DNA from: Ceratodon purpureus
Taxonomy: Eukaryota; Streptophyta; Bryopsida; Pseudoditrichales; Ditrichaceae
NCBI GenBank assembly: GCA_014871385.1
Contig: CM026426.1
Coordinates: 80,209,566 to 80,273,565, forward strand
Length of the DNA stretch: 64,000 bases
Direction of reading: 5' to 3'
Numbering within the stretch: position 1 is the first letter of the stretch; the number at the start of each line of letters is the position of its first letter. Shown one piece after another: positions 19,105 to 61,313 of this stretch. The notes under the pieces were generated by a model that saw only the letters and a program-made list of their open reading frames with translations, had not been told where the DNA came from and searched no databases. The position numbers were made by a program, and so were the translations under genes.

Positions 19105-19640
19105 GATGTCTGACTCCAAAGGCGAGACTTTTGATGTCCGGCACCTTTGGCATTGGAGGAACAATGACTTCTTAGGCCCCACGAAGGCAAAATCATTTGA
19201 GGACAAGGAGGATGATTTACAGGAAGCGCCTCTTTAATATCGCGCAAGTAACATGTTTGGGCGCAAACGAGAGATCAATCCGCTGTGGCTTATCTCTGCA
19301 AGGAAGCAATTCCGTCCTAGACATGAGGGTTCGACCAGTTCAGCCGCCGAGAAACCCTAAACTGCAGAAGATGTGAACACTTGTGGCAAATACGGGAGCT
19401 CTAAATTGCCTGCGGAAGATGACGAGTCCACTTAAGAGAAGAACGCCAAGAGGATGTACGAGGAGCACCTACAGCACATCAATTCAAATCCAAGATAAAC
19501 ATACTTGAAGTTAACCTACGAGGAGTTTCGTTCCTAGAAATCGCTGATAAAGAAGAGTTTGGTCCAGAGGAAGACTTTGCAGTTGTAGACAAGGAGTGCA
19601 TGACTCCTCCCATTCCCCTTGAATGAAAGAATGAAGGAAT
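19105..19640 (+). pseudogene. Unrecognised acidic reading frame with repeated stops
   Basis: From the ATG at 19105 a codon-like frame reads MSDSKGETFDVRHLWHWRNN and continues with Glu/Asp/Lys-rich sequence, broken by TAA at several places. It then shifts frame near 19510 to an equally acidic stretch ending about 19622. Several stops are one C-to-T change from CAA or CGA. I do not recognise the family. It could belong with the gag-like frame 1.5 kb upstream. Confidence 0.3.
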
Positions 19641-22435: not shown

Positions 22436-22439
22436 AGCT

Positions 22440-28232: not shown

Positions 28233-28267
28233 GGGGGGAAGCACAATAAAGTGTACCAAAAAAGTGC
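28233..28267 (+). repeat. Left terminal inverted repeat of the large transposon
   Basis: It starts with six G, then AAGCACAATAAAGTG, then TACC, an A run and GTGC. It mirrors the right terminus, which begins GGGTGG on the opposite strand. Confidence 0.8.
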
Positions 28268-30978
28268 TTAACTATTTCCCAATTTCAGCCCCTTCCGTAA
28301 ACACTAGAGAAAGTGGGATCTACGTTATGTCGATGTAAAATTGAGTTTGGGATACGGAAAGTAGACTTGATGGACTTCAAGTTCCCAAAGTTGCGGGAGA
28401 AGACATTGAGTTTACCATGGAAAACGGAGATGTCGAACTCGGACAAAGTGAACTGACTGATTTGGAAAAGTGAACAGAACGATTTAGGGTTTTTTCCGAA
28501 ATCACTTTTAATTTTGCGGGGCCCCCCGCTTTTGAAATAGGGTTATAGAAATTTACCTGTGTGAGTACTTTGCAACCTTGGATGGGCTAAAAGTACCGTT
28601 TCGACCTTTTCGCAACAGTGTTTTCGACGAAACTTTTGGGGCCCTTCAATTTATTTTTTTCAAAATTCCAATATTCTTTCCGGATGTTACCAAAGAATGT
28701 GTTTTCCCGGGGGAAAAAAAAGTGAAAAATAATTAAATAAAAAATGGACATTGTACAATAAATTCACTGTGAAAAAAGTGCTAGTGGAATGCAAGTGCTG
28801 TGGACTACTGCCACGTCACAGCCGTTAGCTCAACAGTTTGATGGGAACGTCTTTACTGTTTTCAATGAAAGCAGTTCTGTCAATCCCCGAAGACATCAAA
28901 AGAGGGTGCCAGGCGATGGTACAATCGTCAATTAGAAGGTATGAACGTGTTGATTTTTACGAAAATGTTCGATGGTAATCAATGTTGAAAAACCCTCACG
29001 ATCATGGAGAGCCTCGGTGGACACCGGAAGGTGGGAGGTAATCAACTCGAGGAGGCGGCGGAAAATGCTCAGGTGATGCCGACCGAATCAAGTGCAAGTC
29101 AGATCGAGGCTCCGACAGTGCGGCGAATGTGAGGACTGGAAGTATGGATTCCTTAATTTCTGTCTTTGCTGGAAATTAAGGTTTGAAGTGCTTGGCGTAA
29201 TTGAGCCTCGGCGGAGTGCCATGGAGTGCATCAAGAGGGCAACTGATGGAGGGAGAGGCGGCCGCGTCTTCTACTGGGCATGAGGTAAGCAAGTTTCCAA
29301 CCAAATTCAAGTTACACAAATGAGCTTCATGAATTGGAGCTAATATTGTTTGTCCATATCCAAAGTTGATGCCACTTTTGAGGTGGAGAATGTTGTGGCC
29401 GTTGCATGCACGCGGCTATGGTCACAAAGAAAAATTGGGTGGGAGCATAAGGGAATTGTAACGTGGACGTAGTTTTGAGCCTGAAGGATGCATATTGGAA
29501 TTGTAAAGTCGAAGTAGTTTTGAGTTAAGGCGTAGCTAAATTTGAGATGTATACTCATGTTCCTCTTCTAATGGTTTAGGGTTTTACGGAAGGGGAGCAG
29601 TACTCGCATCCTACGATTTCCTTTCCCAGTGTAGCGTTTAAGGTATGATGTTCGAACATATAATATTGAGTGTTGAAGTACATGTTATCCATGTGTCTCG
29701 CTTTTCTTGGGTACCTTTCTATCGATGGTGTCCACAATCGCTGAAAACGATGGCTCTGAATGTACACAGAGTGTAGTCGTCTTTGTTGTGCAGTTCAAAA
29801 CGGTTGGATCATCCATGGCTATGGTCTGCATTAGATTCACAGCTTTCTCATTGAGTTCGTTGTCACAGTTTCGGAAGTTGCACTCCATTTCTGGACAGTC
29901 AAGAAGTTCACAGTGGGAGGGTCTTAGTGGGGCGGCGATGACCTAAAACGACATCAACGACGACGGGAAAAATGTTGGCGCTTCAAATCACTCGATGAGC
30001 AGGTTTTTATTGTAAACGTACTCTGAGTATTTTCTATGAAGCAGGTAGATCCTATTAGGAGATTGACCTCTATTTACCAGATAGGTAGTCATCAGGTTGA
30101 TTTCCTCGTGACGGGGACTTCAGTAATAATCAAAGTTGACTTTGATGTGATAATTTCAGTAACTCTAGAGGAGACTTCCTGACTCGGAAGTGCTGGAACA
30201 AGCCTTTTAAGTTAATTCATTAATTCGTATTGCTAATCAGCTTGAGCATGGTACTTGCTTTGCAGGGTTTGTTAACGACAATAAAAAAAGTGTCCTCACA
30301 TACAAACTGAGTGGGGAATAGTTCTGTGTGGTGTGACTCGGAGCTTCATGGGCCTGCGTCAGACAGAGTCGTGGTTGTTCCGCCGGGACCGTGAACCTCT
30401 TGGTATGTCTTCTCTGCCTAAGCTGTGCTCATTCATGCCTTCACCATAGACACCCAAGATGTTGCTGTTGTAGTTAGTGCAGTAGCGGAAACACTTCGTC
30501 TTTGCATTTGAATTATTTTCAAAATCCATATATGTGAGAACGTTTAAAATAACATTTCTTCGAAATATGTAGCTCAATCCCCAACACGTAATGTGAGGTG
30601 ACTTTGAAGGCTGCGTTGGGAGAGCAGGTCCACTGCAATCGGACAGTTACGTCGACCCGTAGATTGGTTAATGGACGCTTTCATGGTTGAAAACAGCATC
30701 CGGGCTTAATTTCAGGTACAGAGACGTATTTCAATTACGACGGTTCTGTCCCGGAGCACTTTGGTGAAGCTCGTACTTGCTATTGTGTTTCCAAAAGTAA
30801 ATTGTGCACATGTTAGAGACCTTCAGCGGTATGCATCGTTGATATATTTACATGTCCTTTTCTATGTTTTTGAAGAATTTCCGAAGATTAAAGACTCAGT
30901 TGTGTGACTTACGAATATGTTGTTTCCAAAAGAATAAGTCCCTGAAAGTGTGGAACCCTTTTTTAACCACATTCAGTT
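28268..30978. other. Left non-coding arm of the large transposon
   Basis: AAGTG-type words recur in the first 600 bases (for example GAAAAAAGTGCTAGTGG near 28770), echoing the terminal repeat. Small open frames are present, such as 29092-29283, without a recognised domain. The region probably holds transposase-binding sites and the promoter of the plus-strand gene. Confidence 0.45.
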
Positions 30979-33900
30979 ATGGGCAACAAGAAAAATGAGC
31001 GTTGCAGGCATGCAGTGCCTGTGCGGAGAGAACTAAGGATGGAGGAGAGCCAACGGCGGGAGATAGAATTGCGTGAGAGAGCGGAGCAGGACCGCCTTCG
31101 GGTCTTGAGGTGCTGCTCTTGAAGTCAGCTGTCCATAGTGATGTGTCATTCATGCTAGTTTCAATGTGTGTGACTCTAAATTGTACTCTATTTCTGACAT
31201 ACAAGGTTTGTTTTCTGGATCCAGTAGAATGCGACAGATGGTGGGCTAAACCGAATAACATGGGTGATAACTTCTTAGTGTGCGTACTGACTGTAGGGTT
31301 GAACAGCGGCGCGAGCACCGCAGGACATGGAGAACTCGAGTTCAATCGGATCAACTTCGGGCTGCAATCAAAAATGAGACAATAGGTGAAGGATGTTTGC
31401 AGGGACATTCTGGAGAAGAACCCCCCGTTGATTTGAACGATGATGAAGGACAGTGGGAGCTCAATCGGGAGGTGGGGGAAAGAGGAGGTGATCTGAGCGG
31501 GGCAGACTTCCCGGGCAAGGATTTGGAGGGCGTGACTCAGGGAACGAAGTCTGCAGCTGATGGTGTCGAGGACATTGAGTGTACACGAGACACTCCACAC
31601 AGCCGGAGGTGCGCTTATGCTGCTGCGAAGGTTCTTAGGGTCCTCAGGCAAGTTTTAGAAGCAGGTTTCTCTGACGAAGAGAAGAAGATGGTCCTACACT
31701 ATTGTTTTGCAGATGATCTTATAGAGCCATTGACCCAGAGTTAACCACAACTGTTCTTAGGTTGTGCACTGTAGCTGCCACAACCGTGCAAAGTCTGAAA
31801 GGGGCGCTGCAAAACCTCCGTGACACACATATCCAAGGAAAGGCAAAAGTAAGAAATATTGTATTGACCGCTACTGTCTCAAAGGGCGACTCGCAGCGGA
31901 AGATTTGCAAAGCGTTGGGGGCGTCCCGGTACCTGGTTCGCAAGGCTTTCTAGCGGCGAGCAGAAGTGGATGAAACTGGTGAGAACTTGTGGGCGGGGGG
32001 GGGGGGGGGGGGGGGGTGGACAGAAAGCAAGGGAGTGATGCGCTTACTCTATAGGTCCGAGGAGCAATATGCTCTTGGTAGGAAACGGAAACCACCGTCT
32101 CTCCAAACAACAAGGATGTCAAGAGAAGAAGGATTTCCGCAAAGGAGCATGATACTCATGCCACACATTACTTGCAGGTGTCGCAGGTACAGTTTTCACA
32201 TGCACTTCAGTCACTGCGCATTAATTCCTTTCATATTTTGCTTGAAAACACCAGTTACGGTGCGCTTGAATTTGCAGGTCTTGCTGGCCCTTTCGCAGCA
32301 ACTGACATACGCTCAGTGAAAAGTACCCTTGTATACTTCAATCAGATAGTGGCACTAGTGGTTTTATACTGACATTACAAAGTTCATCAGATGGTCAATG
32401 GCGGTTTTGGTCAAACAACATGATGCTTTGTTTTGGTGGTTAATTAAAACTTGGAATGTATTCCCCGCTGTACCTAGGTTTTAGGTTCGATTTTTTTACA
32501 GTTTCTTATGCGACATGGGTTTGGATTGGATAAGGTTTGCTATGTCTTATTTGGTTGCGATTATTTTGTTATCATCTTCGTTCTGTGAGGTTGTCATGCT
32601 ACAGCACGAAGCAGTTGGTGGTAGATCATCTCTTAGAAACTGAAAGAACTGTTTTGCTGCTGTCATTTTAATATGTAGTATTAGGACATGGATACAGCTA
32701 CTTGCGTGTACTGTGCTGTGAACCGGAATTTCTTAATTCTTGTCCGGGCTGAACCTTCAACTTTGCAGTTGTTCTCATAGGCTTAAAATTAAGAAGTTAG
32801 ATTCTCGTCTTTGTTCTGCTCTAATGAGGATACCTCACCGCAGTTTGAAAACCAGACTATTTGGGTCTGTTCTGTCATAGAAAATGGTACAGTCGATGTC
32901 TGTAAGAGGCTTTGTTCTGTCCACGTGGATGTCCGTGGGCTGTGATTATGAGTCCCGGCAAATCTTAATTTAGTCCTAACCTCCACTTGCTCAGCATTGC
33001 AGTAGGCAAGAAGTTATTGCTGATCAACTGGGATCAAGTTAGCGTGGAAGCTACATAACCATAATTCAAAGTGAGATTGATTTATACGTTCATTTTGCAC
33101 CGTCTTTTTCTTCAAGTTCTAGGACATAGATCGTGAACAGATTATAGCTAATTCATGTTATGTTGTTGGCAGTTGGAGTTCCATGCAAAGTTCATGGAGG
33201 CCAGCGAGCACAATCAGGTGGGGCTGCGGGCGTTTGAACTCTTGAAGCCATATTATGTCAGAAGGTTAATGGAAAGGAACACATGTGCATGCCGATACCA
33301 TTGTGAAATGGCGGAACTAAGACTGGGTTGGAACAATATGCGGATTGCCACAAAGGGGAAACATGGCAGTCAGCGCACATGTCAATGTGAGGTATGCGTG
33401 AGCCCGCAAACTGCAGAGTCCATTGGCGAAGATCAGCGGAACAGGTGCCATGCAGACCTATCGCATTTCTGTGGAGTGACGGACCTTTGGCATAGCGTGC
33501 TCTGTCCATAGGAGGGGGACGGCTGGCATGCACAAAGCTGTATCATGGGTGAATGCGAGCACTATGGAGTGGATATGTTAATGTTATGTCCAAGGGAGCT
33601 GGACAGTGAAGGGACGCTCAAGGTGCAGTGGCACAACTTCAGAATGGTGCTGCACGGCATGACTAAGGCAGGTAAAGAGAACAAAGTATTGCGTATGACG
33701 TACCAGAATACTGCTGCTCCAATCTATTTGGACTACCTGAGGCAGAAGTTAAGACCATTCATCGTGCACAACTACACCGCTAAGTGGCAGGCGGAGCGGT
33801 ACAAAGAGTCCATCGACACCTTCCCTCCTGAATCTATACTATCAGCTGTCGATTTTGCGGAGAACTACACTTTCCAGCCTTACCAGGAAATTCAGTCCAT

Positions 33901-35664
33901 GTACTGGCTGCAGCACCAGTTTACTATACTGGTCCACATATGCTACAGATGGAACCCGGTTTACCTAGCAGATCCCAGTTCTGATGCCCCTAAGCTCTTG
34001 ACAGAATATCACTACTATACTAGTGATGATGCTGAGCACGATACTCTTTTTGTGCAGCATTGTTTTGCGTTGCACTGGAAACACATAACGGATAGGGGAA
34101 TAAAACCAAATGAGCACATTGTTTGGTCAGACAGGTGCGCAGCGTAGTTCAAGTCTCAGAGATGCTGGTACCACGTCTCAAGGTATTTCTAACGAGAGCA
34201 AACTCTGTCTTGTCTGTATGTTCCATCTGCCTCTTTCTAAACTCCTAAGGAAGAAAAGTAATTTCAGTTTTTGGATACTTTCTCTACAGGTATCCCTCCA
34301 CAACAATGAGTCCTGATCTATCGAATGGGTGTAGGATGGTATGGTCTTACTTTGGCAGTGGACATGGCAAGGGGCTCCATGATGGAGCAGGGGCAATGTT
34401 AAAGTGTGCAATCCGCAGCGAGGAAATGAACTTTGAATCCCGTACAAAGCTTCAGAGTGCGGCTGATGTCGTTGACTTCTGCAACCGCAAGGAGTCTGAA
34501 GAGCACAGAGCATATGGAAAGGCTCGGAGAACTCTCATAAGGTACTTCCATTTGATCGGGGCAAATGAGGTGGATAGAATACGTGACCTAGACTGTCAGC
34601 CCGTACCCGGCACTAGATCAGTCCTTTCCGTTTCTTCTGTGTCACCGATCGTTGTTACATACTTGCATATCAGAGAACTATCGTGCTTTTGTCCCGAGTG
34701 CATGGATGACAACCCGATGTTCTATGGAAGGCAAAATCACGTGAAACACTGGAAACTCAAGGTCTTGCAACCGTTGACGCCAATTCAGGTGAGTATAGAC
34801 CACGGTCACTGGATTCTGCAGTACCGTTACTGTGTGCGTTTTCTTTGACTTTCTGCTGAACCTAGTCGCTGGAGTGCCCAGCCAGGTCACGCACCAATTA
34901 GGTGCTTGCTGTGCAATTTAAGGACCACGGGCTTTTTGGATATGGTAGGAATTCTTTTTTTTCCTAACTCAAAGGCTAGGTCTGAATGGACTGATGTGGT
35001 GGTTTATTTAAAAATTTTGATGTGTGAAAGCTCACTCAAATTACGTAATTTGAGAGCATGGAGGAGCTTAGGGTGCGGAACAGCGATGATGCATGTGTGC
35101 ATGGCCGGGGCAATTTCAGACCGAGTTGAGGAAAGTCGGTGGAGAGAGGGTTTAGGGGAAGTGGTAGGCAACATGGGAAGGCTGGGAATGTGCAGTGGAT
35201 ATGGATTGTTAGGAGCGAGGCATTTTGTGCAATTTCATTCTTGCCCGTACTTCGCTTTCATCGCTGTGAATTTCTTGATTTGAAGACAATAGATGTCCCT
35301 TTTGACTGTGTGCTGCATGGTCTTGCTCAAAGGAGTTTACGCTTTAAGGTTTCATGTCCTACTGTGATCAATGGCTTGCTTTTGTCCAAAGACACTTCTT
35401 CGCGATCTCCACCAATTCCTAACATGTGGAATGTGCATGTCTACAATGAGCTAGAGCATGGGACAAGGGACGCGACTCCAACGAGCTAGTGAACATGCTC
35501 GTGAAACATCTGAACCGCGAGGTACGTTAACGGTGGAAGAGATCCAGATAAACAGAGGAGAAGAGGAAGGGCAGGGAACCGAACAAGATCTGGAACATGA
35601 GACTGCGGAGTTCGAGGACGACCTAGTTGACGACGTTGAGGATGAGGCGATAGTGCATTGGTAA
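30979..35664 (+). pseudogene. Transposase-like gene of the large transposon, RNase H-type D-D-D, several exons
   Basis: Exons by my model are 30979-31109, 31297-32186, 33173-34182 and 34290-34788, plus C-terminal sequence to a stop at 35664. Introns are GT-AG, and phases agree except inside the second exon, where a frame change near 31700 and a 22-G run disturb the frame. The N-terminus is basic and helical. Exon three carries NTCACRYHCE, then AVDFAENYTF (Asp at 33851). After DDAEHDTLFVQHCF it has VWSD (Asp at 34130). Exon four has YFGSGHGKGLHDGAGA (Asp at 34381). I infer these three Asp as the catalytic metal ligands of a DDE/D transposase. An acidic tail ends the protein. Stops at about 31951, 33509 and 34145 are all TAG where Gln is likely, so the copy is inactive. 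Family named only by resemblance. Confidence 0.65.
31995..32016 (+). repeat. Run of 22 G inside the transposase-like gene
   Basis: An uninterrupted G homopolymer lies in the second exon, in a Gly-rich stretch after NLWAGG. Its length may vary by replication slippage or be an assembly error, so the frame across it is uncertain. Confidence 0.9.
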
Positions 35665-38600
35665 CGTTCCAAGAAACGTGCAACATTTTGAAGGTGAGCA
35701 CTGTTGTTTGCTTTGTTTTTCTTGATTATTTTTATTGTATAATGTTTTAATGGAAATGCAAGTTTTCTGGATGTTTCGAATTGATTGAACATGGTCACGG
35801 CGTTCTGTTGTTGTGAATTCGGGCAGGACACCATGCACTGCACCTTGTAAGTGAGTTGCTAGACGTCCTTTTCTCAAGTCATACGAAGCTGAACTGCTGT
35901 GGTACAAAAGGCTCCACGGGATGTTACAATTTTTGGCGCAATCGGATGTTGACAAAACTAATCAAAGTTACAATGGCGTGACTCGGCTGCACTTTCTGAC
36001 AAGTAATGGTCACCATAAAGGTGTTGTACCTTTCAGTGAGTCCACTAAACGTTGATGGTTTTATCATTAGAAATGATCGGAGAAGCTCTATTTCATGTAC
36101 CGACTTTACTGCTCTTGACTGTTGTTATTCCTATTTGCTTTGTACTAATCGTGCTTGTCTGATACCCTTGCTGACGGATGCTTTGAAGTATAGGCATGCC
36201 ACTAATTTCCACTCCTTCTTTTGTGTTCTTGGATGTATCATATAAGGAAATCTTGATTTGCGGGATGTGCAATGGTTCACAAAAGGCAATGATTTTTTTG
36301 CCAGATTTTGGATGTATCCAATCCTCGACTTATTACTACTCAAATGATTTTGATAAGTAGATTTGCTGTTGGCAGAAATTAACGAGTGCTTTACTTTGGC
36401 GTAGTTTGATTTTTGTTAGCAGAAGCAGATATTGGTATTTAAAATCTGTGTTGTTCCAGTACTTCCTATCATGTTGGCTTCAATTATAGGAGAGGGCCTC
36501 GATTATATGAAATTGCTTTCTCTTTGTTTTGAGTTTCTGACTTCTACCTTTTACTTTGCCCGTATACATCGTGATAACATCCCATTGTTGGAAGGGTTTG
36601 GTTTAGTGTAACCCTTAACATTTGTGCAGTTATGCCTGCAGGGGCAACCTTGTTCAGCGCTATTTGCAAGCCCATCTTTGAGTTCCGACAAGGACCGTAC
36701 GTCACTGTGCGATAGAATCCTCTAGGCACAAGTATCCTCATGGCAGTCATTACTACGTGAATTTGGGCATTATTGAATTGTTCGTCAAGGAAGAGTGCTG
36801 TATGTTTGATTATTTCTCAAATCTGACATAAGTTCTCTGCATTATGTTGCATTCAATAGTTCAACTCACGCTTGCAAATTTTAGTATGATTGGCGACAAG
36901 TAACCATACTATCTAATTTGGGTCCGTGTTTAGCTAAGTCATATTGAAATAGTGTATTGTGCTAGGAGTAGTAATACATAAGCCTGTTTATGTTCGAAAA
37001 CTCTTGCAATGCCTTTGCTTTTTTGGTGAATAAGTGCATTCCGATTTGAAACTTAACATCTAGTTCAGTCTGCTCTTTGGCGGGTTTCGGCAGTTTCTGG
37101 TAAGACGTGGTAAGTATTAGGGAATCTTTTCTGAATATGACTAGACGCTTTACTCGGAGACGTGCAACCTACGGGAATGCATTTTTTGGTCAAACTGCAT
37201 TGACGAAATTCTTCTGAATGCTGTGCTTTTTTTTATCAGGCACTCTAGAGTCGGGGAACTCTGAAATGCTGTCAGAGCATACAAGCTCCCATGTCTGTTC
37301 TAAGTGAATGGTTAGCTGATGGTCGCTACTCCTTGACAGCAAGAATTGCACCTCGACTTCAAGTAGACAGTCGGTGAGTCAATTACGTTGTTTCAGGTGG
37401 TTCGTTTCAATGAAATTCACTCTTATGTAAATTTCCTTCAATGTTTGAATCTACAACGTCAGTGCTTTTCACGTGCATTTATGAAACGTTCTTTTCTTCA
37501 ACCAGTGATTATAAATAAAATGTATGATCTGATTGCCTACAATTTCATAGGTATGTTGTTGTTATTTTCTTGCATCATTGCCCTAATATTGCGGGGTTTG
37601 TCTCTGCTTGCAGCTATTTGGAGAAGAGGAACCATCATGAGTAGCAAGCGCGGGGTTAGTATAATCTATTGTGCACAAATCAGTGTTTCCAATGTACTGG
37701 CGATGGTGTTCTGAATTGGCAGAACGAGCAATACGCGAGTTGTTTTAGGTAAGCTTTTAAGGACGACGTTGGACTCATGTTATAGATTTTGCAGAGGCTA
37801 TCACTTATCTATAGTCTTTTTGTTCTGCTAGATACGAGCAGATTTCGGTAATGTCCGGAGTATTGAAACATCTCAGTCCACTTCAGCATTGCTTCAGTAC
37901 TTCTTATTTACTTCTCAGCCGAGTTCACTTCGTTCAGCTTGTCGCAGGGCAAGCTGTAGTGTTCTTCAGCATCAACTCCCTAGACGAGGAGAAGTGAAGC
38001 GTCCATGTCCTGACGTGGTTCGAGAGGTATGTTCGGCTTTCACTTGTTTTTCAAAGAAGGAATGTACTTCACCTCTGTCACGTACTCGTTATTACGGACA
38101 TAGCTTGAGCTTCCACTTAATGAGCCTCTCCAATACGCCAGGAGCTCTTTACAGCTACATGGCCATGCCGGACAGTTGTCAATTTTTGGTGAATTTCTTA
38201 GTTCCGGACTTTCTATCTGTTACCTACACGAGCGACACTGTGACTTCCCTTTAACCTCCTCCTTGTAAGTTATTGACACTGACGACAGACTTCTTTGTAC
38301 TTACTAACTATGAGTTCAATGTGCCGAGTACTCCGTATCACTGGCGGATCATATCCTTGGAGTTAACTGATTCTTGAACCCTTCTCTTCATCAGTGATAC
38401 TGACAAAGCACTTCCGCAAAGTTGCCGTCAATTGGTTGGCAAGTGTTGTAGACTTGCAAAACACATGCGACTACAGAGATTCGTGCTTCCGCGTTTAGGA
38501 AAGTAATCAAGTGACGATGCACTTTGATCCTCCTCCCTATAATAGGGCTTCACAGTCACGTTCTAGAAGTTCCCAAGAGCCTTCTTAGGTATTTGCTCCT

Positions 38601-40559
38601 CATGGGGAAAACCCTTTTCCTGTACTGAACCGCAGATGAAGAGCGTTGTTACACCTCGAACAACTTCTGAACCACTTTACTCTTGTTAAGCAGCCCTCTA
38701 CCTTCTTAGTTAACGGAGTTCACTTACAAGTCACTTTGTCTCACTTTCGCTTTTTGGATCTTGCTAGGTCAAGTACTTTTGCAAGTACCCAATAAGAAAG
38801 TGAAGTGGAAGTCAAAGTGGTCGAACAGAACAGTTTTTGCAATTGGAAAGGATAGATCGTCTGGACATGAAGCGCAGATTGTGAAGTGCAGGACTATAGG
38901 CGACACAATTGTCTTCACGAAGGTGACGAAATGCCGCTACGTGGTGAAGAAGGAATGAGCGGTGTCAGTCAGACCGCTGCCATGTTCAAAGCAAACTTCA
39001 GCAATGTATTCGGCCGCTGCTTGGACATGGACTTCAATCGAAGGCCACTTCAGTCTGCTCTACATCTTGCGCATACGACTTGTACGTCCTCGTCAGACCA
39101 TGCCAGAAAGAGATCGTAGACAATGCGCTGACAAGTACTCCTCTTTACTATGGTATCCAACTCTACATTTCGCACAATTACCTTTAAGGACCTCAATGTT
39201 TGCAGTATGCTGACATAAGATCACCTGCTATTTTTGTGTTGACATTTCCACACTTGGGATCTACATGTCATTACAGTTGTCGGTTGGACTTGGTTACGAA
39301 GGTGTGCGCATATTACATGCCATTCCCTTTCACGTTTTTGTTCTAAGCGGTAACTTGGGTGGGACTTCGCGGATAAGTGTCCTGACACTTACGTCTACTT
39401 AAGCTGTCCTTTACCTTCTTAGTTAAGACCTTTCACTTTCAAATCACATTGCTTTAGCTTCCCTGCAACCACTTTCAAATCACAGTGCTGTAGCTTGCCT
39501 CCTTTGAATGTAGCTATTGAATGTACTTTTGTCTTAGTGTTCAATGAGCAAGTGAAGCGCAAGTAAAGTCCAGCTTCTATGTGTGAGTTGAAGTGCTACC
39601 TGTGAACATTTCTTCCCTTCGCACGTTTCGAAGTGGCATAACAGTAGTAGAACATGTCGAACACAATTTTTTTGACTTTTGTTCTATCAATTTTCCGAAC
39701 TGTGTGCATGTTGTGGAGTCATTTTAAACGGTTTCAAAGTACGCCCTACAGTTTCAACTGAGGATCACGTAGTCAAAGAACCCTCCTAGTTTCTATTGTA
39801 ATCAAAACGCTTGGACACGGTCAAGATATCATTGTGCAGAGGCACAATTTCAGTGGCTAACCTTCTTTGGAGATCTTGCATCACATCTGTATAAGAGGAG
39901 TTAGAACCACCGTACGTGTAACTGTCTCCAAATTTCTCTGAAATCCTCAAAATGAGCCGCAAATACCATAGGCTCCCAGGCAATTCCGCATCAGGAATAA
40001 AATGAAATAACGATTACCAGACCCCCTAGTGCACAAGGCCCCAGTGACCAAGAACTCTCAGAAATTCCAGTGGATCCTAGTGGACCCGTTTGGAACATAC
40101 ATCACCCTCCTAGAGCACCCAATAACTAGCTCCATGGAAAATGATCTTTGTTACTTTAGAACCTTTTTGTTCTAAGGACCCGGAAAGTACACGCTGGTGA
40201 AGGCCACCACGTAGAAAACAAAGACGTAAAGAATAGTACAATTGTCACAAACTGTGGCATGTATCCCTTCCTAGCGTAACACCATTCCTGAACTACAGAA
40301 CGTAATCAAACTATGGTCACACATCCTCAGTCCGATCAATCCATGATCTTATAAAATACATAATCTAGGCAACCACTTTTAGGATCCACCCCAACTCTCA
40401 ACTCTGTTCACCCAGAACCCTGAAGAAATAGGGATTGTAAATGCGTATTCAAGCAAAAATCATACAGAAGATCCAGATACTTGGAACCAGGGATTCATTG
40501 CTGTCCCGAACGATGGAAGCGAATATATATGCAAATCAATCTATTGAACCATATTCGAC
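35665..40559. other. Interior of the large transposon between its genes; no firm gene
   Basis: Open frames are short (the longest about 120 codons at 37889) and show no domain. A diverged direct duplication is visible: 38640-38830 and 39395-39580 share CTACCTTCTTAGTTAA-type blocks and a GTACTTTTG...AAGTGAAG stretch. Words with CACTT and AAGTG are frequent, like the termini. Confidence 0.45.
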
Positions 40560-42790
40560 ACGCAGAACCATACGCACTCAAAATCCGACAAAATTGTGCC
40601 CTGCGCCCACTCAGCTGTCTCTTTCAACTGCTAATCATCTAAAGAAATGCATTCATCCAGGAAATCTTTGAAGAAAACCGTCCGCTTAAACAAAGCCGTC
40701 GCGTTAGCTCCAAGAGTATCAGCAAGATCACCCACAACTCCAATCGCAGCCTTGGTCACCACATCATCCCTGAAACAAGCAAAGCAATTGAATATTGACC
40801 GAAAAAAAGTATAAAACATTAGAAACTAAATAACATCTTGATTTCAAGATTAAACCTAATTTAGGGTTCAGAATATCACAGAAACCTGACAAAAGCCGAG
40901 CATTAAACAACCAAGTGGTAAAATGACGGAGTTGTAATGAGAGAGGAAGATTCATACCTGTCTTTATCCTGATACACATTCTCAATAAACTGCAGAATGT
41001 GCCCAGCGTAAGGCACCATCAAATTCGCCTTGTTCGACTTCAAACCTTGCAAAATACCGGATTATGCCTAAAAAATGCCACTTCGGAGCTGGTTGTTGTA
41101 ATCGATCATTTCATCGTCACCAACTGAGGGTCCAGCAGAGAGCTCCGCAGCTCCTTGAAGCATGGGCATCGCGTTAATCAAGTATTTTTCAAAGTGCTCA
41201 CCAATAGCGAGAGCAATATCACCAAAGCAAGAGAAGATAGGTGGCTTCATTGAGCGATGCAACTGGTTGCTTGACAAATCCTTTAGAAGTTGAGTCATGA
41301 TACCATCGCAGTAAGGAAGAACCTTCTCGTCCACACGAGCGACAGATATCACCAACTACACCAACAGTCACCGCACATACCTATCACGAAGCAGACCAAT
41401 ATGATTAGTGCCAGACAAGTAAATTTTAAATAAAAAAGAAACCACTTGAACCCAACTGATTCGATTCACTGAGGCGTGCGTAAATTAGAATTATATGTAT
41501 CTAAACAAACAGCACTCTGCTCTTCTATTTCTACAGATACTTATGTTCGCAAAAGGACCAATCAGTGTTCATCCCGACTACTGATCACGAAGAATGAGGC
41601 AGTATAAATACCTGGTATTCTTCAAAGTTTTGAAGACCCATTTCCAAGTACCGGTAAAATTCCCTCATGTACTTTTCAAACTCAACACCAGTGGCTCTTT
41701 ACAAGCTCCGATCCCAAGCATCGCATCCTCATGGACAGTCGCACTTCGGCAAGCGAAGACACGAAGAAACAGACCCATCGTTTGATTGGCATACTGCACA
41801 ACGCCATACCTGGTGACTTTCGTCGCACCGAGCTTCTGAATGATCACCTGCGAAAACAAAAGACATAAATGTATGTGAGCTTCTGTTCAATTTAAACAGA
41901 ATTCAAAACTTGGATTCACAATTTCTTCCAAAACATATGCTCATAAATGCGGGTAGAATTAATAATCCTGAATGAGCCATTGTTGTTATGTCAAAAGAGA
42001 GGAGACGGCTCTAGTACATTGTTCAATTTTCATGAAGAGACGACTATGTTAAACGGGGTTTGAACTACAACAATCATCCTGCGTCACCTCTCAAAAAACA
42101 ATTGCCCGATGATGAAGATGTATCACTGAAACGGTCCCATGAAAATTTAGTTTAAAAGCAACACTAGGGTGTGGATAGGAAAGTGTTAGAAGGCTCTACT
42201 CGAGGAAAGAAGATTCTCAGTTAACCCAACATACAAAGTCGGACACCCACAGAATAAAAATAAGCGACATTGACTCTTACCTGCAGAACAACAAATAGGA
42301 GAGCCTGAAGTTCACTCTCCTTATCTCGGTCATCTTACGAGAGCTCGGCCATCTGCAAAGTATGATTGAGTTTCTCCATGATGACAGGCACCAGTTGCAT
42401 GACAATCGGTGCAGTGTCCCCTGTTGAGATGCGGACCACCTCATTCAGAGTCTCATAAGCAGCTGTCCGCAGCCTAGAATCTCCAGAATCCTCTCTCTGA
42501 GTAGTTGCCAACAAGGCTTGAACAATGCTCTGGAAGAATGGAGATAACGGAGATGACGTCTGTCCGCCTTCCTCATAACCTTGGGCCAAGAAGTAAACCG
42601 CTCCACAGACCTTCTCTGCAACATTAGCTGTATCCTTGATTCTCTCAAGAAGAACAGCTAGCACCTACGGCAAGTTAGTCTGGGTGATAACTGGAGCCTC
42701 AAAGGAAGCCCTGTGAAAGAACTCAAAGATTCTTCCCATGGTCCATGCGGTGGTATCCTAAGACATGTCTTCGAACCTGGACTCAGAAGT
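40560..42790 (-). pseudogene. Importin subunit beta-1 fragment (C-terminal half), intron-containing pseudogene
   Basis: Exons from the 5' side are about 42790-42281, 41847-41612, 41380-40958 and 40769 to about 40560, with intact GT-AG introns of 433, 231 and 188 bases. Translation matches importin-beta HEAT repeats closely: NVAEKVCGAVYFLAQGYEEG, GLFLRVFACRSATVHEDAML, LPYCDGIMTQLLKDLSSNQL and MKPPIFSCFGDIALAIGEHF, ending KETAEWAQG. The protein normally carries nuclear import cargo through pores and has about 870 residues. Only about the last half is present. Stops occur at 42758, 42665, 42335 and near 41068, 41062 and 40631. A 1-base deletion near 41700 and an insertion near 41340 also break it. 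It is not a processed copy because introns remain. Confidence 0.9.
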
Positions 42791-43267
42791 CTGTGCGGGA
42801 CATCCCTCCTCCCCTTATTATGCAAAAAAACCTAAAAACAAATAAGAAGCCACACCAATACCGAACCAAGAATACCATATACAGATCTGAAGTTGTTTTT
42901 CAATAAATGCGCATATTTTATATCTTTATACAGGTCATTAATACACGCCAAGCCTCAGTGCCATGCCGGATACGCGAATGAACAAAAACTACCTAATATT
43001 GAACCGTTAACTCCTATGATCGTATTCATATGTCCAACCCAAAAAAAATAGTGCCATTAATACACATGTATACTCGACCTCGTGACCATCCCAAAAATTG
43101 AGACCCGTCACATTTAAAATCGTACGGAGTCCTTTGACCCGACCCTAAATCCAAAATTAGATCGTTCCAGATGTAGCTGTTGTCTGCATATCACATGTCT
43201 CCCTCTGCCCGATACGGTCTCAAAATTTACAACATGTAGTCACTGACTTTGCCACCTTAGAGATACT

Positions 43268-44197
43268 CTAAGGCATACTTGCGTCGCGCTTGCGCTTTGC
43301 CTGATTCCCTCCGCGACCTTGACCTTTCCCTGCATCAACAATCACAACTGGTGCTTTGAATTTCTCCTGAACTCCAATTTCGGCCAACTGCTTCATGTTG
43401 CACCCCTTCTCTGCCCTTGTCACGCCTTGCCCTGTACGTCCTCGCCCTAACATCGGCTTCTTCGCCCCTTGCACCAACCCTCCGTCAACTGAAGTCCCCG
43501 TAGTGGCACCGGGCGAGGGACATAGCTTATTTCGCAAGGCCGCCTGCCGTCGCGTCTCGACAAACCCCGTTCCTTTACTTGAGGACTTCTTAACTGTCGG
43601 GGACTCCTCAGCAATCGCCTGTTTTCCCGAGTGCACAGTGTCCACGTCAGGTACTTGGCAATCGGTTCCTCCCATGTCAGGTTCTGGATCCTCCTCAGTG
43701 GAAGGCGACGTTGCCCTATCAGTTCCCTTGCTCATCGTAGTGGTTGATGGCACATTGCCGGTGAAGGATGGTGGAATGTCTTCGTCTTCTCCCACCCCCA
43801 AAGCCGTGTCTGGTAATGTCTCCGGGATCAAAGTGCTCAGTACAATACAACCTCCACGCTCATGAGCCGCATGGGATGGCCGTTGTGCCTTACTCAAGCA
43901 GAGCTCTTCTTTATCCGAGAAGAGTATGCTTTCGTCGAACGTCCTTGTGGATAGTTGCTCAGTCGGCATTGACGGAGTCCCGGATTTATTCACCGCTGGA
44001 GGGGTACCGAGCGCCAATGCATCCAGATGTCCTGCTCTTCTTTCGTCGGCTACCCTTCCCACAGGGGACGTCGGCGTCTTCCAACTCGGAGACGCATGAG
44101 TCTTCACTTCTCCCAAAGAAGGCGTCACCACACTCTTCTGCTCAATCAACGATGGAGTCCTGGACGCCGACCCCACGTGAACTACACAAGCAATCAC
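43268..44197 (-). CDS. Long Pro/Ser/Thr-rich open frame, possible last exon of the second transposon gene
   Basis: About 309 codons stay open, rich in Ser, Thr, Pro, Gly and charged residues and without a recognised fold. The end is basic with a nuclear-localisation-like KRKRD. Near the C-terminus come KKPMLGRGRTGQGVTRAEKG and RRQAALRNKLCPS. It lies inside the large transposon on the same strand as the exon-like frames at 45.9, 47.0 and 49.6-50.2 kb, so I propose it is the last exon of that gene. Its length without a stop beside heavily broken neighbours suggests recent constraint or composition bias. Function unknown. Confidence 0.45.
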   Translation of the reverse strand: MIACVVHVGSASRTPSLIEQKSVVTPSLGEVKTHASPSWKTPTSPVGRVADERRAGHLDALALGTPPAVNKSGTPSMPTEQLSTRTFDESILFSDKEELCLSKAQRPSHAAHERGGCIVLSTLIPETLPDTALGVGEDEDIPPSFTGNVPSTTTMSKGTDRATSPSTEEDPEPDMGGTDCQVPDVDTVHSGKQAIAEESPTVKKSSSKGTGFVETRRQAALRNKLCPSPGATTGTSVDGGLVQGAKKPMLGRGRTGQGVTRAEKGCNMKQLAEIGVQEKFKAPVVIVDAGKGQGRGGNQAKRKRDASMP

Positions 44198-44307
44198 ATA
44201 CTCTGTGATTTCTCAATGTTCAGTCTGCTCTGCGCATTACTGAGTACGAATAAAAATACATGCAGTTCCAAAGAGAAACAAAATTAAGAAATTGATTTCA
44301 CTACGCC

Positions 44308-44690
44308 TTAGTGAATTGAAAGTGAGTAAGTGAGAAGAAACGGTCACCAAAGCGTTCCACCGAAATGACCGGATCAAACTGGATTCGTAGTGCTACCGCA
44401 GTAACAGTCTCCTGGAAAGTGAACGTTATCTGTTTCAAGTAATATCGCAGTGACCGAAGGTACTCCCAGTACACGTCAACCTTGTGAACTGCTGTTCAGT
44501 AGCCGTCACCATGGAAAGCAACTCCTCAGCGACGGCACCTCATGTATACAAAATTTCAATTCACCATCTTTAGTGAATTGAAGTGAGTAAGTGAGAAGAA
44601 ACGGTCATCAAAGCGGTCCACCGTAATGCCCAGATCAAAGTGGATTTGCTGTGGTACTGCAGCGACAGTCACTTGGAAAGTGAACGTGAA
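44308..44690. repeat. Direct duplication, two units of about 120 bp (44308-44427, 44569-44690)
   Basis: Both units begin TTAGTGAATTGAA, continue GTGAGTAAGTGAGAAGAAAC and end GGAAAGTGAACGT, with about 15% differences. The second contains AGATCAAAGTGGATT. A close inverted counterpart occurs next to the right terminus of the large transposon (50920-50950). This suggests shared internal and subterminal motifs, perhaps protein-binding sites. Confidence 0.65.
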
Positions 44691-45861
44691 CTCTCTTAAC
44701 ATGAACACAGTGAACAACTTGACATTCCAGACGCTCAACCAACCCCCGCAAGGACTCAGTGGTTTACCCCACAAAAGCAAAGTGATAGAGCACTTGCACG
44801 TGAAATAAGCTGAAGCATATCGATGCTACCTAACAAAGACACTGACAAAAGCACTTTTACGTTCGAACAGTGCAAACGCAGTCATGACAGGCATCACCGA
44901 CCACGATTGAGGGTGTAAGTCACTGCTAAAGCATTGATCTCACCTCACAGACTTTTGATGAACTACTTCGCCTTCAAAGCTACACTTTCTAGATCTGTAA
45001 GGGCTAAACGAAGCAGATCAAATAAACAAAGTCCATAGCACCAGCCCCGGAAAAGGTGGTGAAGTGACAAAAGCATGGAAGGCAGTGGACATTACGCTAT
45101 ATCCCTCAACCAACACCACTGAAGCGCTCTCCTATACCGTATTTGCCGCTGTGTAAGTCTGTGCCCTTGCAGTGATAACTCAAATAGCCCAGCAGTGTTA
45201 GTGCGTCGCTGTATCAGAAACTGCTTATATCAAAAAGTAAGTGACAAAGATGCCTAAGCGGAAATCACGAAGGTGAAAACAGACACTGTAGGAAAAATGT
45301 GACGTACACACTACTGTCCAGAATTCCCAGATCAACGTGGCCGCAGATATGCCTTACAATTTCCTCCGGATGATAGCGACCATATCCTTGAGGTTACCAG
45401 CAAGGAACCTCAAGTTTGAACTCACATGACGAAGACAGTTGCGAAACTTACAGTTGGTTGACGCCGCAGCTGCAACATTCCTAGTGTCACGCCTGTTGAT
45501 TCAACTTATTTGTCCTTCTACTTTCGCCTGCCGAAGTGCTGGTAGTCGGATTTGATTGGCTCCGAAGCTATCCAACCAATCCGCGTTGAACTCCATTTTG
45601 CAATTCACATTTGCGCACCTCCTTTTACCGTCACTCAACTAAGCTACGAGACAAAAGTGATGATAGCAGCAACTGCAGTCCGCAACAGAGATGTTGTGGC
45701 ACTTAAAGTAGAAGCCACAAACCGGGCAATTTATCACACTGATAACCTGAACTCGTCCCTCCGTAGGAACCCGTGGATTTCGAATTGGGAGTGAAGTAGT
45801 CCCCATCCCAGAGCCCACAGCCATCATCTGTACTTGCTCGGTCAATTTCCCACCCACATCT

Positions 45862-46252
45862 CCAATCGAGTTGACTGAGTCCCTCGTACGCGGATCTCAT
45901 GCTCAAACTTATTGAGCTCCGTCTGAAGTCCCTCTTGTTCAAATCTCAGCACCTCAGTGCGGGCACTCTCCCGATTGAGTATGTGAACTCCGAATTCCAA
46001 GTCCTTGTCAATCGGCCTCAGCTCCTCATCCTCCTCTTCACAAGTTTCTCCAATTCTGTCCTCGCCATTCTCCCCTAAGTCCCCGGCACTTTTAATGGAG
46101 TTGAAATGCGCCACCAAACTGTCACGGCGGCTCCTCATGTTGGCGCAGCTGAGGTCTTCCTCTCTCAAAGACTTCAGGCGTTCGGCTAGGGCACCATCAA
46201 CACCCTTGCACTGCTGCTGGAGCTCCTTGCTCCGCTGTTCTAGTACGCATCT
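45862..46252 (-). CDS. Coiled-coil exon of a putative second transposon gene
   Basis: After a splice-acceptor-like CTATGCTGCAG the frame is open for about 130 codons. It is highly charged with heptad character (LEQRSKELQQQCK, LRFEQEGLQTELNKFEHEIR) and an acidic cluster TCEEEDEELRPIDKDLEF. The end GGAGATGTGGGTGGG may be a donor. No family recognised. Its place in a multi-exon minus-strand gene running from about 50.2 to 43.3 kb is inferred from strand, openness and composition. Confidence 0.45.
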
Positions 46253-47045
46253 GCAGCATAGATTGACGAAACCCAGATCAGGTATGTTCCATAGTACACA
46301 GAACCATGTCACCGATTTCCAAGTTCGCATTTCCACTACCCCGCGGACACACTGTGTACAACCACATGTGCATGAGCGGTGTTCGCATAGGTGTCGAAGC
46401 AAACTTCGGGCTGTGAATATGTATTGGATGAATTACACACGTCTGTCATCCTCGTATACTCATTGCCGACGTGCGCTATTATTTTGTAGAGTTTCGCTAA
46501 TTCAGAGCCTATCAACGTCAGATGTGAAATTTCTCAGTGTCTGATCCGAGCGATAATAAATCTTGGTCATTAAACTTCCGTAGAAAATCCTGACTCTAAT
46601 CCATTTAGCAATAAAGTATCTTAGGTGATCTCACAGTTGAGGTGGACAAGTAACATCTCCTGACCAGCGCAACCTAAACTTGAGCATTAAAAGACGCATC
46701 ATAACAAATGCTAAATGCCAGTTCAATATTAGCTCTACAGCTCAGACTCACACCTCATTCGCGGTCTCACTCCTTCTACATCACAACCACCACCATTGAG
46801 CAAAGAGAAACAAATGCAAACCAGAAAGAAATGCAGAAGCCGTTGCACACCTCCACATTGCACATGTATGCACATAGTAAACATAAGCACTCACCGTGAA
46901 AACGAAAATCGTTTACCAGATCCTGTAGAAACTCATTCAAGGAACACAAGAGGCACTGGCAGAGCACCGTCACTAAATACCGCAACATCTTGTAAGGGAA
47001 ACTGTGAATTGACGTAGTTACATTGTGAAGCCATAAAATCTGACA

Positions 47046-47324
47046 TTAATGAACTTGCTTGACCGGAAATGCAAACAATACTCCGTTCGACGGTTGCTTA
47101 AGAATTTCGGGGTTGACATCTAATAGCCAGTTCCAAGCGTGCCTCACAATGATCCGGCACTCACTTCCTCTAGCTATATTCCTAAAGTGTGGAACCATGG
47201 CCACTTCAACCACTCTAGACATGTGGACATCAACTATCGAACGGTGTACCAAAACCTCCGGCATGAACCAGCGCGGTTCTGATAAAGAAGAAAACAGAGC
47301 AACCGCACGAGGTAATCCTCTCAA
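47046..47324 (-). CDS. Exon-like open frame within the large transposon
   Basis: About 90 codons with well-mixed, protein-like composition: ALFSSLSEPRWFMPEVLVHR, VAMVPHFRNIARGSECRIIV and HAWNWLLDVNPEIL. No domain recognised. It stands on the same strand between the coiled-coil frame and the 49.6-50.2 kb frame, so it may be a middle exon of the same gene. The start and splice sites are not fixed. Confidence 0.35.
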   Translation of the reverse strand: MRGLPRAVALFSSLSEPRWFMPEVLVHRSIVDVHMSRVVEVAMVPHFRNIARGSECRIIVRHAWNWLLDVNPEILKQPSNGVLFAFPVKQVH

Positions 47325-49575
47325 CGTCCATCATTACATCGGTTAGGACTGAATCCCAGTGGAACAAAGCCGCAGCCGGGTCCACGATGGCTATCCGTGT
47401 AAGGTACAACTACTTGGGCATCATATCCAAACTGTTAGCTGGTATGAACAGGACCGAAAAGAGCTAGCAAGGCCAGACATTTCTGTAACTTTCACTACTT
47501 CGCACATACCGTGTTCGAGAAGCATGCATAATGAACCACGACTATGCCCTCCTCTGTTACTATCTCTATACCAGGTTCACACACGTGTTGATAAAAGGTT
47601 GTCCACAGAATAAGTCCGTCGACAATATCAGCATACAAATGAATTTCATTTCAAATGAAATATACATGAGGGAGACATGAGTTACCACCCTCAAATGAGC
47701 AGTCAAGTCCAAATAAATGTTGTTGCACGTATAATACTCACAGACTTCCACTGTACAAACATACATTCTAGGCAGAACCTTGTCGACTCTGTCATCAGCC
47801 GCTTCGATGTTGACACGGGATGCATTAAAGAATTGCTAATAGATAAGTGACCTGTGCTTCACCCTCAAACTCATATACATACATAGGGTATCTCAACCAT
47901 CAACTCTGAAACAGAGCTACCCGTGTCTTGTCTAACCCTCAAAGGAAATTGCTCCGGTAGCGTACAACATCTGTTCTGTTCTTCCAAGCTTATCCGGTCA
48001 GCAGTTTTCCAGCACCCCTCTCTGGAATGAGCGGCTGCTGCCAGAGGCGTTCAACTATCCCGGTACCCGCTGCGTTGGGAGACTTCAAAAACCTTTTTGT
48101 TCAAAAAGTCGGAGAACATGTAATATGCGTTCAACTAGAAGCTCTCTAAATCCCTATAAACCGTGCTATTGGTCATATCAAAACTGTAACAATAAACTTT
48201 CGATGGAATAGCGACCTACTGTATCTATAGTTGCTTGCCTTCTCATATTTAATGCTCCCATCTAAATTGAAACCTCGAAATAGACATTTTAGACACGCAC
48301 GCTCACCTTAAGCACCGAGCTTGGAGGTGACTAGGATTAGCACATCCTGTCATCCTCCCAAAAACCACTAAAAAACTAGGTGATAGTTCAACAAACATGT
48401 GACGTCTTGTTCTCTCAAATCAGATCCATGCATGATCTGATTACAAGCCACCAAAACTTACAATCTAGCTTAATTGTTACAGGCTAGAAGTAAATTCAAA
48501 AACATAAAAACCAGTAGTAGACTATGAAACTGAAAACCGCAAATCCTTCCATAATGATCTGGCCCTGAAACACATTGGAAGGATCGTGAAAGTTTATTAA
48601 GGTAACAAATGGTGGTAACCATGAAATGAATACATAGTTTGCAGACAAAAGGTGACATTCACTACTCTGAGTCAATACATTTCGCAAGCATTCCCAATCT
48701 GCTGAGTGGACGTCGGAACCCTCTGGTCCTTTTAGGGTTCACGTGCTTGTTAAATTCTTTTTAAACTCAGCTTCTGTACATTACGGGCTACGCTCATTTT
48801 ATCTGCCCAACGCTCCAAGTATAAAAATTGCAAAGCTGATCATGGACACCTACGTTTTGTTTAATGTTGATCAAAACCTCTAATCTAGGACATGGAGACG
48901 TGTTTCTCAATAGTATTATCCCTCTCACAAAGACTGCATCACTGGAATCAAATGACAGTACATCTATGACGAAAAATAGTCTGCTATTAAAACCCCATGA
49001 CTTATTTCTGTTTCAGAGCCCAACAAAGATGATAAACGACAAGACAAATATTAAAAGGCGAATAACTGCGCCGTTGAAGATTGAGGACCAGAATTGAAAA
49101 TCCCGTTTCAATGCGTACTACTCGCATCTGGCTGTGTCAATGACCTAAACCTAAAATCACATATTACATTAACAGGAGTTGCACTGTTCTCAACGCTTAC
49201 TCGAGAACATCAACCCCCACTTGATCTGCGCTGCAGCATGAGTACATTACAGAACATGTTTTATAACAAAATAATCGAAAGCTAGTAACACATACCAGAC
49301 TGTATCCATTCCGAGTCGATGTCCTGTAACAGACAGTAAAAACATAAGAACCTTTAACAGGTACCACAGCATGATACTCATCCCCAATCGGACATTTACC
49401 AACCAAGCGAGCTTTATCATGGACATTACAGAACAACCATTGAAAACCGGATTGAACTGTGCAAGGTATGTACAGGGGACATAAAACATTTCAAGCTATT
49501 TACGCATGTATGATTGGCGGATTGTTCTAGAGATGTATAAATGATTTTCAGAATCAGGTAACAAATGCAGAACTC

Positions 49576-50223
49576 ACATCTTTGGCCCAATCCTGCCAGC
49601 GTCTCCTTCGGCATCCTCCAACATCTGAAGCACCTCCGAACTCTGGTCCTCGAAGCGGGCTCGCACGTTGTTCCAACCTGGCGTTGATCCCCACCTTGAC
49701 ATCTACTGTTCCCTAAATTCTCCAAACATGGAATTCCCTGAAGCTCATCCCACTTTGAGTGTAGGGCCTCCTCCACTCTTCCATCCTTCTGCCTCGCAAT
49801 ATACTGCTTCCTACAAATGTCATGGGCAAATTTGGCCCAATTGATCTTACACTTCCCCTCCCTCTCCGCCAACCAGCTCCTTAAAAAATAACAAGCAAAC
49901 TCCTTATTGGGAGGTGCATGGTTGTACATTAGAAAATACTTTTCCCAGATTGTACCGCACTCAGCCTCCGTGATGAATTCATTTGCAACCACTCGGATCC
50001 CACTGCCTCCTTTATTTGGAAATACCCTCTCCAAATGGGCCTCGCTGATATGCGTCGTTCCACATTCTGTCTTTCCGCAAATGCCGGCGTCCTCTAACTC
50101 CAGCTTCTCTGCAAAATCCTGCACAGACCACCTGCACCGTAAGTGGAGTCCTTTTGCGAACTTGATCCTCTCCCCCTCTTTCATGTTCAGGTCTGCATCA
50201 GATTTGGGGAGGGTAGAAGCCAA
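49576..50223 (-). CDS. N-terminal exon of a putative second transposon gene
   Basis: The first in-frame ATG is at 50184; the open frame extends a little upstream. The product includes KEGERIKFAKGLHLRCRWSV, a segment around CGTIWEKYFLMYNHAPPNKE and WLAEREGKCKINWAKFAHDI, then HSKWDELQGIP. After that a better coding signal lies one frame over (SRWGSTPGWNNVRARFEDQS), so a frameshift or unmarked splice is likely near 49720. AGAT|GTGAGT near 49578 is a good donor. The Trp-rich pattern looks like a real folded protein, but I cannot name it. It lies only about 0.8 kb inside the right terminus. Confidence 0.5.
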
Positions 50224-50870
50224 CTTCGCTTTACTGTGGCCATGGCGTAGCTAATCTGTCTTGACTAGTTTCTCCTATCACATGCAAGATCGTGCATGTG
50301 CACTCGCAAGCACCGAACCTTAACTTTCGTTATCCATGATGCACTGGTCCACTGCAAACCCTGTGTCGAGACACCCCAAACTGAAAAATGCGTTGTTCCA
50401 ACTAATTGCTACGACAGTGAATTAGCGACCATGCAACCCCCGAGATCACTCGATCAACTGTTGAACGCTAAATCGTCCAATTTTTCCCCACCCTTCCTGG
50501 CTACGAACTCTCCCAAAAGAACTTTCTTCTTGCAACTACCTTGCTCTTCCGGAAAGTGGCTAGCCAGTGAAGTGAGCATGACAAGTGATGGAGAATACTA
50601 GTTGGCGCAACCTATCCCGAACAATTTTGCATAGACCCTCTTTAACATAAATGACGCCGGATACGCACCTGACTGCATCAATTCACCTCCCTTGGAAAAG
50701 GGGCTCATCAGGTTGAAGCACTGAACAAGCTACGGAGCATTCAGAACTCATCTTTGCGGGATCCCCCACAATGAAGACTCACAATTTTGGCTTCCGTGTC
50801 CACCCCTAAACCCTTGCAACAAGTGTCACCCTAATTCCTACTCTCCTATCTCGCAGTTCAACCACCCCCT

Positions 50871-50910
50871 AGGTTCCCAAGCGTTCCCAAGCATTCCCAA
50901 GCGTTCCCAC
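50871..50910. repeat. Four 10-bp tandem units (GCGTTCCCAA type) near the right terminus
   Basis: GGTTCCCAA, GCGTTCCCAA, GCATTCCCAA and GCGTTCCCAC follow each other about 80 bases inside the right end of the large transposon. Their placement suggests subterminal sites. Confidence 0.8.
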
Positions 50911-50958
50911 TGTACCCATACAGGCCACTGCGAATTCACTTTGATCTGGTCACATTTT

Positions 50959-50992
50959 GCACTTTGTGGTTCACTTTATTGTGCTTCCACCC
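50959..50992 (-). repeat. Right terminal inverted repeat of the large transposon
   Basis: Read on the minus strand it starts GGGTGGAAGCACAATAAAGT and ends CACAAAGTGC, matching the left terminus apart from three substitutions and one base less in the A run. Confidence 0.8.
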
Positions 50993-50996
50993 ATTG
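50993..50996. repeat. Target-site duplication ATTG, right copy
   Basis: It is identical to 28229-28232 and directly follows the right terminus. Confidence 0.7.
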
Positions 50997-61304: not shown

Positions 61305-61313
61305 GGATGCTAC
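61305..61313. repeat. Target-site duplication GGATGCTAC, right copy
   Basis: It matches 58031-58039. If the element and one copy are removed, a frame can be read across the junction (VMD, stop, DATNDLNWRAKDR). Confidence 0.75.

Follow-up and report, generated by a model that had tools for sequence, protein, structure and literature searches.

Giant transposons and their closest described counterparts

DNA transposons of giant size are known from algae and fungi, among others (accessible parts of PMC12477816 and PMC6431247), and the element described here is a giant of 22,760 bp at positions 28233-50992 of a 64,000-nucleotide stretch from the moss Ceratodon purpureus (C6:80209566-80273565; hereafter the window), which lies on the largest contig (C6, 110.5 Mb) of the 362.5 Mb genome searched. 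We interpret it, with a rough probability of 0.93, as one copy of a giant cut-and-paste family that has spread an importin-beta passenger on C6 and for which Sola is the nearest known superfamily. The family is multi-copy with fixed ends and a 4-bp target-site duplication (TSD), has empty sites, keeps its transposase linked to its ends, and captured a piece of a host gene that then multiplied with it. The window copy itself is a complete-ended, coding-dead giant transposon.

As far as the accessible parts of the sources go, Sola elements encode a transposase with three catalytic aspartates (DDD), make 4-bp TSDs, carry terminal inverted repeats (TIRs) of 11-1124 bp and usually measure 2-9 kb with some above 15 kb; they are known from the moss Physcomitrella and have been reported in bacteria too (PMC10741241). 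In Ectocarpus, Sola1-1_Ec32 measures 21.5 kb and encodes one gene opposite in strand to its transposase; many transposases of the giants in this alga are predicted pseudogenes (PMC12477816). Giants of the Kyakuja-Dileera-Zisupton (KDZ) group carry accessory genes and can be as large as about 30 kb (PMC12477816), and 8-bp TSDs are given for Zisupton and the Dileera element described (PMC12730594). CACTA/EnSpm elements have CAC...GTG termini and 3-bp TSDs (PMC12730594), Ginger elements combine TSDs of 4-6 bp and an integrase-type transposase with TG...CA termini and 40-270-bp TIRs, and Mutator TSDs measure 7-12 bp (both PMC10741241).

The window element and its relatives resemble Sola in the 4-bp TSD (ATTG, CTTA, GGTA and AAGG at long copies; ACAC, ATTT and TGTA at short ones), the predicted DDD triad, a 35-bp TIR within the Sola range, the moss host and a size of 15 kb or more, beyond the usual one, and they resemble Sola1-1_Ec32 in having accessory coding sequence on the strand opposite the transposase. 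Unlike Sola1-1_Ec32, whose opposite gene is a ParB/methyltransferase in the accessible description, the window copy has three other frames and a host-gene capture there. Going by published descriptions, Sola is the nearest known superfamily, with three of the four listed Sola features present (TSD, DDD transposase, and TIR and size), and the element likely works like Sola. KDZ, CACTA, Ginger and Pack-MULEs each fail one tested defining feature. KDZ elements are likewise giant DNA transposons with accessory genes, but the TSD here is 4 bp and not 8 bp (the 8-bp flanks GTATATTG and ATTGGTAA are not alike). The transposase has no match in Pfam, which should include a KDZ model. The GGG...CCC termini and 4-bp TSD differ from those of CACTA/EnSpm, and Ginger shares the TSD length and an integrase-type transposase but differs in its termini, in the TIR of about 35 bp and in the missing Pfam integrase match. 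Unlike Pack-MULEs, the element has a 4-bp TSD and at 22.8 kb retains its own (broken) transposase. It was not found in the accessible portion of the literature searched, in which subscription journals are thinly covered.

Borders, copies and empty sites

The borders proposed by a first-pass annotation of the window proved exact to the base, both in the terminal alignment and in genome copies. The termini read GGG...CCC over about 35 bp, are identical at 31 of 35 columns of the inverted alignment and contain the perfect 17-base core GGAAGCACAATAAAGTG, which had been reported together with ATTG on both sides and which we find again with the same flanks; this core is present twice in the window, both times terminally, with no other copy at up to three mismatches. 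Seven inverted pairs score at least 42 bits in the window, and an exact 4-bp outer repeat accompanies the terminal pair only; none of 60 dinucleotide-preserving shuffles of the window contained any pair at this score. Strand composition also fits a single unit whose two halves converge, with a G-C skew of +0.14 across 28233-38000 that turns to -0.15 across 38001-50992, and the longest fall within 10-56 kb (37869-51288) was equalled in size in 0 of 1000 block shuffles (500-base blocks). The rise on the left side is less sharp, beginning near 20.4 kb.

Copy counts are lower bounds taken from the matches listed, a restriction that counts against us throughout. Searching the genome with the left 201 bp gave 40 listed matches at 92-100% identity (the window itself included; best of 1750 first-look candidates), 39 of which begin at query base 1, and 35 of the 40 listed matches to the right 201 bp (best of 624 candidates) do the same. 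At eight loci compared at the left end, the inside is alike and the outside sequence varies by locus. The first-pass annotation had named two findings that would refute it, and neither was obtained. One was copies whose ends break off at different places; instead, the copies share a common end point, with a few short copies off by one or two bases. The second full copy (C6:2491160-2506505; 15,346 bp; TSD CTTA) matches the window copy in two blocks of 95.9% and 94.5% identity and lacks window 31873-41346, hence the transposase core. The other refuting finding would have been the lack of a second locus bracketed by both ends; this copy is such a locus, albeit one without the transposase core. 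Two of four paired loci examined further have both ends and a TSD, with borders read by hand: a 31,464-bp copy on C7 (3785143-3816606; GGTA) and a 37,899-bp copy on C1 (11275497-11313395; AAGG). Two more C1 copies of 30.2 kb (C1:20021380-20051592; L011-L014) and 33.4 kb (C1:20055484-20088864; L014-L017) are inverted to each other and lie 3.9 kb apart. Full copies span 15.3-37.9 kb; giant size is the habit of this family, and the earlier remark that few such elements are this long fails within this genome, where many of its members measure 20-40 kb. Six short copies of the same ends were examined as well, three of which measure 738-739 bp with clean TSDs (ACAC, ATTT and TGTA).

The transposase travels with these ends. 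It lies in the correct order and orientation within 50 kb of 24 of the 40 listed right ends, at 14.1-43.5 kb, compared to a chance expectation of 0.32 pairs on average and three at most (1000 random placements; contigs without stated size set to 18 Mb). None of the 40 listed right ends has a transposase on its outer side, and two pairs have it on the same side but on the wrong strand. The window flanks joined with a single TSD match 40 genome places listed as the best of 368 candidates, mostly on C6; as the empty-site search suggested by the first-pass annotation anticipated, 39 run uninterrupted across the junction, and the remaining one is the window's own right flank. Base reading at four empty sites showed ATTG at three junctions and ATAG at one. 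These sites are paralogous because the element sits within another repetitive gene family, and a protein-level probe across the joined flank genes found 15 homologues, every one matching the right side only. What was first proposed, a long transposon with TIRs, its own transposase gene and a 4-bp TSD, is strongly supported.

Coding content and the captured importin-beta piece

Structure modelling predicts a DDD-type transposase with an RNase-H fold like the retroviral integrase core. In the window version, the N-terminal part is broken by a TAG stop at 31951 and by a frameshift placed by eye near 32.05-32.08 kb, and the next exon by TAG at 33509 and 34145. The frame is open in the 30.2-kb C1 relative, and a transposase probe has at least 112 genome matches, with 62 of the 112 listed lacking an in-frame stop (rows counted by hand, part of which span only part of the probe). 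No Pfam family matched the joined window exons at E up to 10 or, with a limit of E 1, the proteins P0009, P0001, P0054 and P0068. The transposase has no match among Pfam or NCBIfam models, and a profile search against solved-structure sequences gave nothing at E up to 1. Relatives are absent from the viral and prokaryote contig collections searched, though Sola is reported in bacteria in the accessible part of PMC10741241. These negatives lend weight to the reading, which we rate not far short of even, that the superfamily is an undescribed one and shares its 4-bp TSD and DDD triad with Sola by convergence; TSD length, triad, moss host, a size above 15 kb and the opposite-strand accessory gene fit the accessible Sola descriptions and argue against it.

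The first-pass annotation had seen a two-gene transposon, which does not stand: the minus strand carries three conserved frames (B, C and D; Table 1) and a captured importin-beta piece. Its putative minus-strand second gene, which faces the plus-strand transposase, dissolves into several frames and a captured fragment. Among the coding parts of the window copy, D alone is undisrupted, the transposase, B, C and the importin piece being broken; C and D are open in the 30.2-kb C1 copy. Protein B (structure model with pLDDT 69) found no meaningful Foldseek match and no domain match, hit only fusion and maltose-binding-protein chains among solved-structure sequences (best E 0.006) and has no relatives in the viral contigs searched, while profile and solved-structure searches with C gave weak sub-threshold coiled-coil and RING-like hits only and D has no Pfam match. 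This lack of recognisable domains would suit independent host genes that were captured once and are no transposon genes, but such an origin is improbable, given that B, C and D all recur inside copies on C1 and at C6:67 Mb whose likeness to the window is 68-88%, and that the B and C families number 15 and 14 members (one search). We regard the three as candidate transposition or silencing factors.

The donor of the captured piece is the host importin-beta gene, in which an exon shows an open frame of 620 aa about the probe used and spans aa 1-588 of a plant importin-beta sequence without a stop. The piece is collinear with C3:16323748-16326029 at 90-92%, starts mid exon 1 at about aa 428 and ends after 2.2 kb at the stop codon of the frame; its retained introns indicate that the capture was copied at the DNA level. 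The 6-base CATGTC stands in both donor and element at the upstream junction, a microhomology that suggests template switching at capture. The importin exon is found at four of four candidate places, namely the donor, the window, the C6:2.49 Mb copy and C6:87.97 Mb. All three captured versions share a 5-bp deletion, a 76-bp deletion and a stop at host position 16325930, and two more stops are common to both copies that reach that far. The other stop-table rows are copy-specific or were left out (16326023, at the junction; 16324565, which also marks the host through a frame error; 16324958, which all three copies have but which an indel may have produced in the alignment). Divergence of the captured versions is 8.6, 9.3 and 9.0% from the donor and 3.5-4.0% from one another. 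It follows from the shared deletions and stop that there was a single capture, which was broken before the copies separated and was then spread.

Its presence in three element copies at different places could also be expected of functional cargo that helps the nuclear import of transposition proteins. We consider this highly improbable, because the shared lesions show that the piece was broken before it spread, and both C1 copies have more open frames yet lack it (no match to window 39756-42759 at E up to 1e-10). In the 30.2-kb C1 copy (element positions 16783-22981 and 14967-15872), 6.2 kb replaces the importin region and about 3 kb is extra elsewhere; frames of 254 and 302 aa there could be other cargo. 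An alternative genetic code, considered for the TAG and TAA stops first seen, was rejected: the stops stand in place of different residues (Q, E, Y, L and S in the importin piece), and the frames of the donor gene and of many relatives are open. Virtually no credence is left for two separate short elements of the same family that flank, in opposite orientation, a host segment with an importin-beta pseudogene: short derivatives with such ends are present in this genome, but the window has the end core only twice with an exact TSD on the outer flanks, much of the same interior lies between the same ends at C6:2.49 Mb, and the window flanks rejoin to an uninterrupted repeat.

For the preferred giant cut-and-paste family, a DDD transposase would recognise the 35-bp GGG...CCC termini and insert the element with a 4-bp staggered cut; the chemistry is suggested by the integrase-like DDD fold, and structure and duplication rest on copies and empty sites. 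An ancestor of the window copy would have taken up the 2.2-kb importin-beta piece, introns included, probably via template switching during gap repair, and the already broken passenger would then have been carried to at least three places on C6. Since the window transposase is broken, the last move may have been made while it was intact, or in trans by open-frame relatives.

Table 1. Features of the window copy and its insertion site, in window coordinates.
Feature	Position	Strand	Remarks
TSD ATTG, left copy	28229..28232	.	single ATTG at 3/4 paralogous empty-site junctions
Left TIR	28233..28267	+	alignment; genome matches of left 201 bp
Transposase, N-terminal part, helix-turn-helix-like stretch by eye	31271..32195	+	open 318-aa frame in C1 copy
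Internal inverted repeat, arm 1, in transposase intron	32470..32774	+	68% to arm 2
Transposase exon, Cys-rich stretch and first two putative catalytic Asp	33155..34182	+	
Transposase exon with HGKGxHDG motif (putative third Asp)	34290..34787	+	
Transposase C-terminal exon remnant	35455..35661	+	likeness by eye to 202-aa frame of C1 copy
Importin-beta C-terminal half (aa ~428 to stop), introns kept	40566..42767	-	several stops and frameshifts
ORF D, 314 aa, open	43268..44212	-	82% identical and open in C1 copies
Gene C, coiled coil and RING-like Cys/His cluster	45357..46303	-	one frameshift, two in-frame stops
Internal inverted repeat, arm 2, downstream of gene B	49060..49364	-	68% to arm 1
Gene B, ~225-aa protein	49577..50244	-	frameshifts near 49645 (tblastn) and near start (by eye)
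Right TIR	50959..50992	-	alignment; genome matches of right 201 bp
TSD ATTG, right copy	50993..50996	.	exact match to left copy
Part of repetitive gene family receiving the insertion	51266..52318	+	

Points against, surroundings and significance

Several observations weigh against our interpretation or limit it. The left TIR was not seen in the 3.5 kb fetched at the paired C3 locus, nor in the 3.5 kb fetched at the C5 locus, where no right TIR was found within two mismatches either, and the C6:87.98 copy has lost its left part. Short copy L007 shows its TSD (TCAT) only after a one-base border shift, and in L003 and L005 the duplication matches only with the border moved by one or two bases. 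Sixteen of the 40 listed right ends have no transposase in place, and the 24 pairs with one amount to 23 transposase loci because two C12 ends share a single one. Foldseek E-values for the transposase fold are weak, the best (8e-3) being to Piwi proteins; the 33.4-kb C1 copy has 10,000 N where its transposase is expected; and in the 30.2-kb copy gene B is interrupted by a single in-frame stop. It is their conservation inside the unit that suggests that B, C and D may aid in transposition. Finally, the flanks of the C1 pair are mismatched (TTAT/ACCA and ATAA/TGGT) and are pairwise reverse complements, a pattern that we read as the trace of an inversion, brought about by recombination between the two oppositely oriented copies, each of which would formerly have had a 4-bp TSD.

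The repeat that received the insertion (with flanks at 28100-28232 and 50997-51150) belongs to an abundant gene family without Pfam match, and the internal inverted repeat of the element comprises 305 bases that are not obviously coding. A tnp2 (Transposase_21, CACTA-type) fragment lies at 25053-25382, about 3 kb from the left flank, and 473-5607 is occupied by a Ty1/copia retrotransposon that has a reverse transcriptase domain and, close to its ends, direct repeats that are 94-96% alike. The minus strand at 8286-8900 encodes an OTU-type cysteine protease exon, possibly of a host gene. A 144-base segment at 334-477 recurs at 61166-61309, 60.8 kb apart and 95% alike, and Arg/Ala-rich frames with repeated units are found at 58-61 kb. 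Rfam gave no match at its gathering threshold.

Ceratodon purpureus is thus a plant whose genome holds a giant family in which 20-40 kb is common, with many stop-free transposase matches and short derivatives. An unnamed superfamily is possible. More specifically, we tentatively propose, though we would sooner bet against the whole of it, an undescribed superfamily of plant and algal giants that would as a rule measure about 15-40 kb or more, with a four-frame module of a DDD transposase, B, the RING-like coiled-coil C and D. Many of its transposases would be open, and it would capture and spread host genes, here onto the largest contig, maybe a sex chromosome. We presume that C6 could be one. 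The record of a single host-gene capture is unusually complete, with the donor gene, the capture junctions, three descendants and the empty sites all in one genome making up a complete natural experiment. Fragments are often all from which the capture of genes by TIR transposons is inferred; here it is datable and can be dissected base by base.

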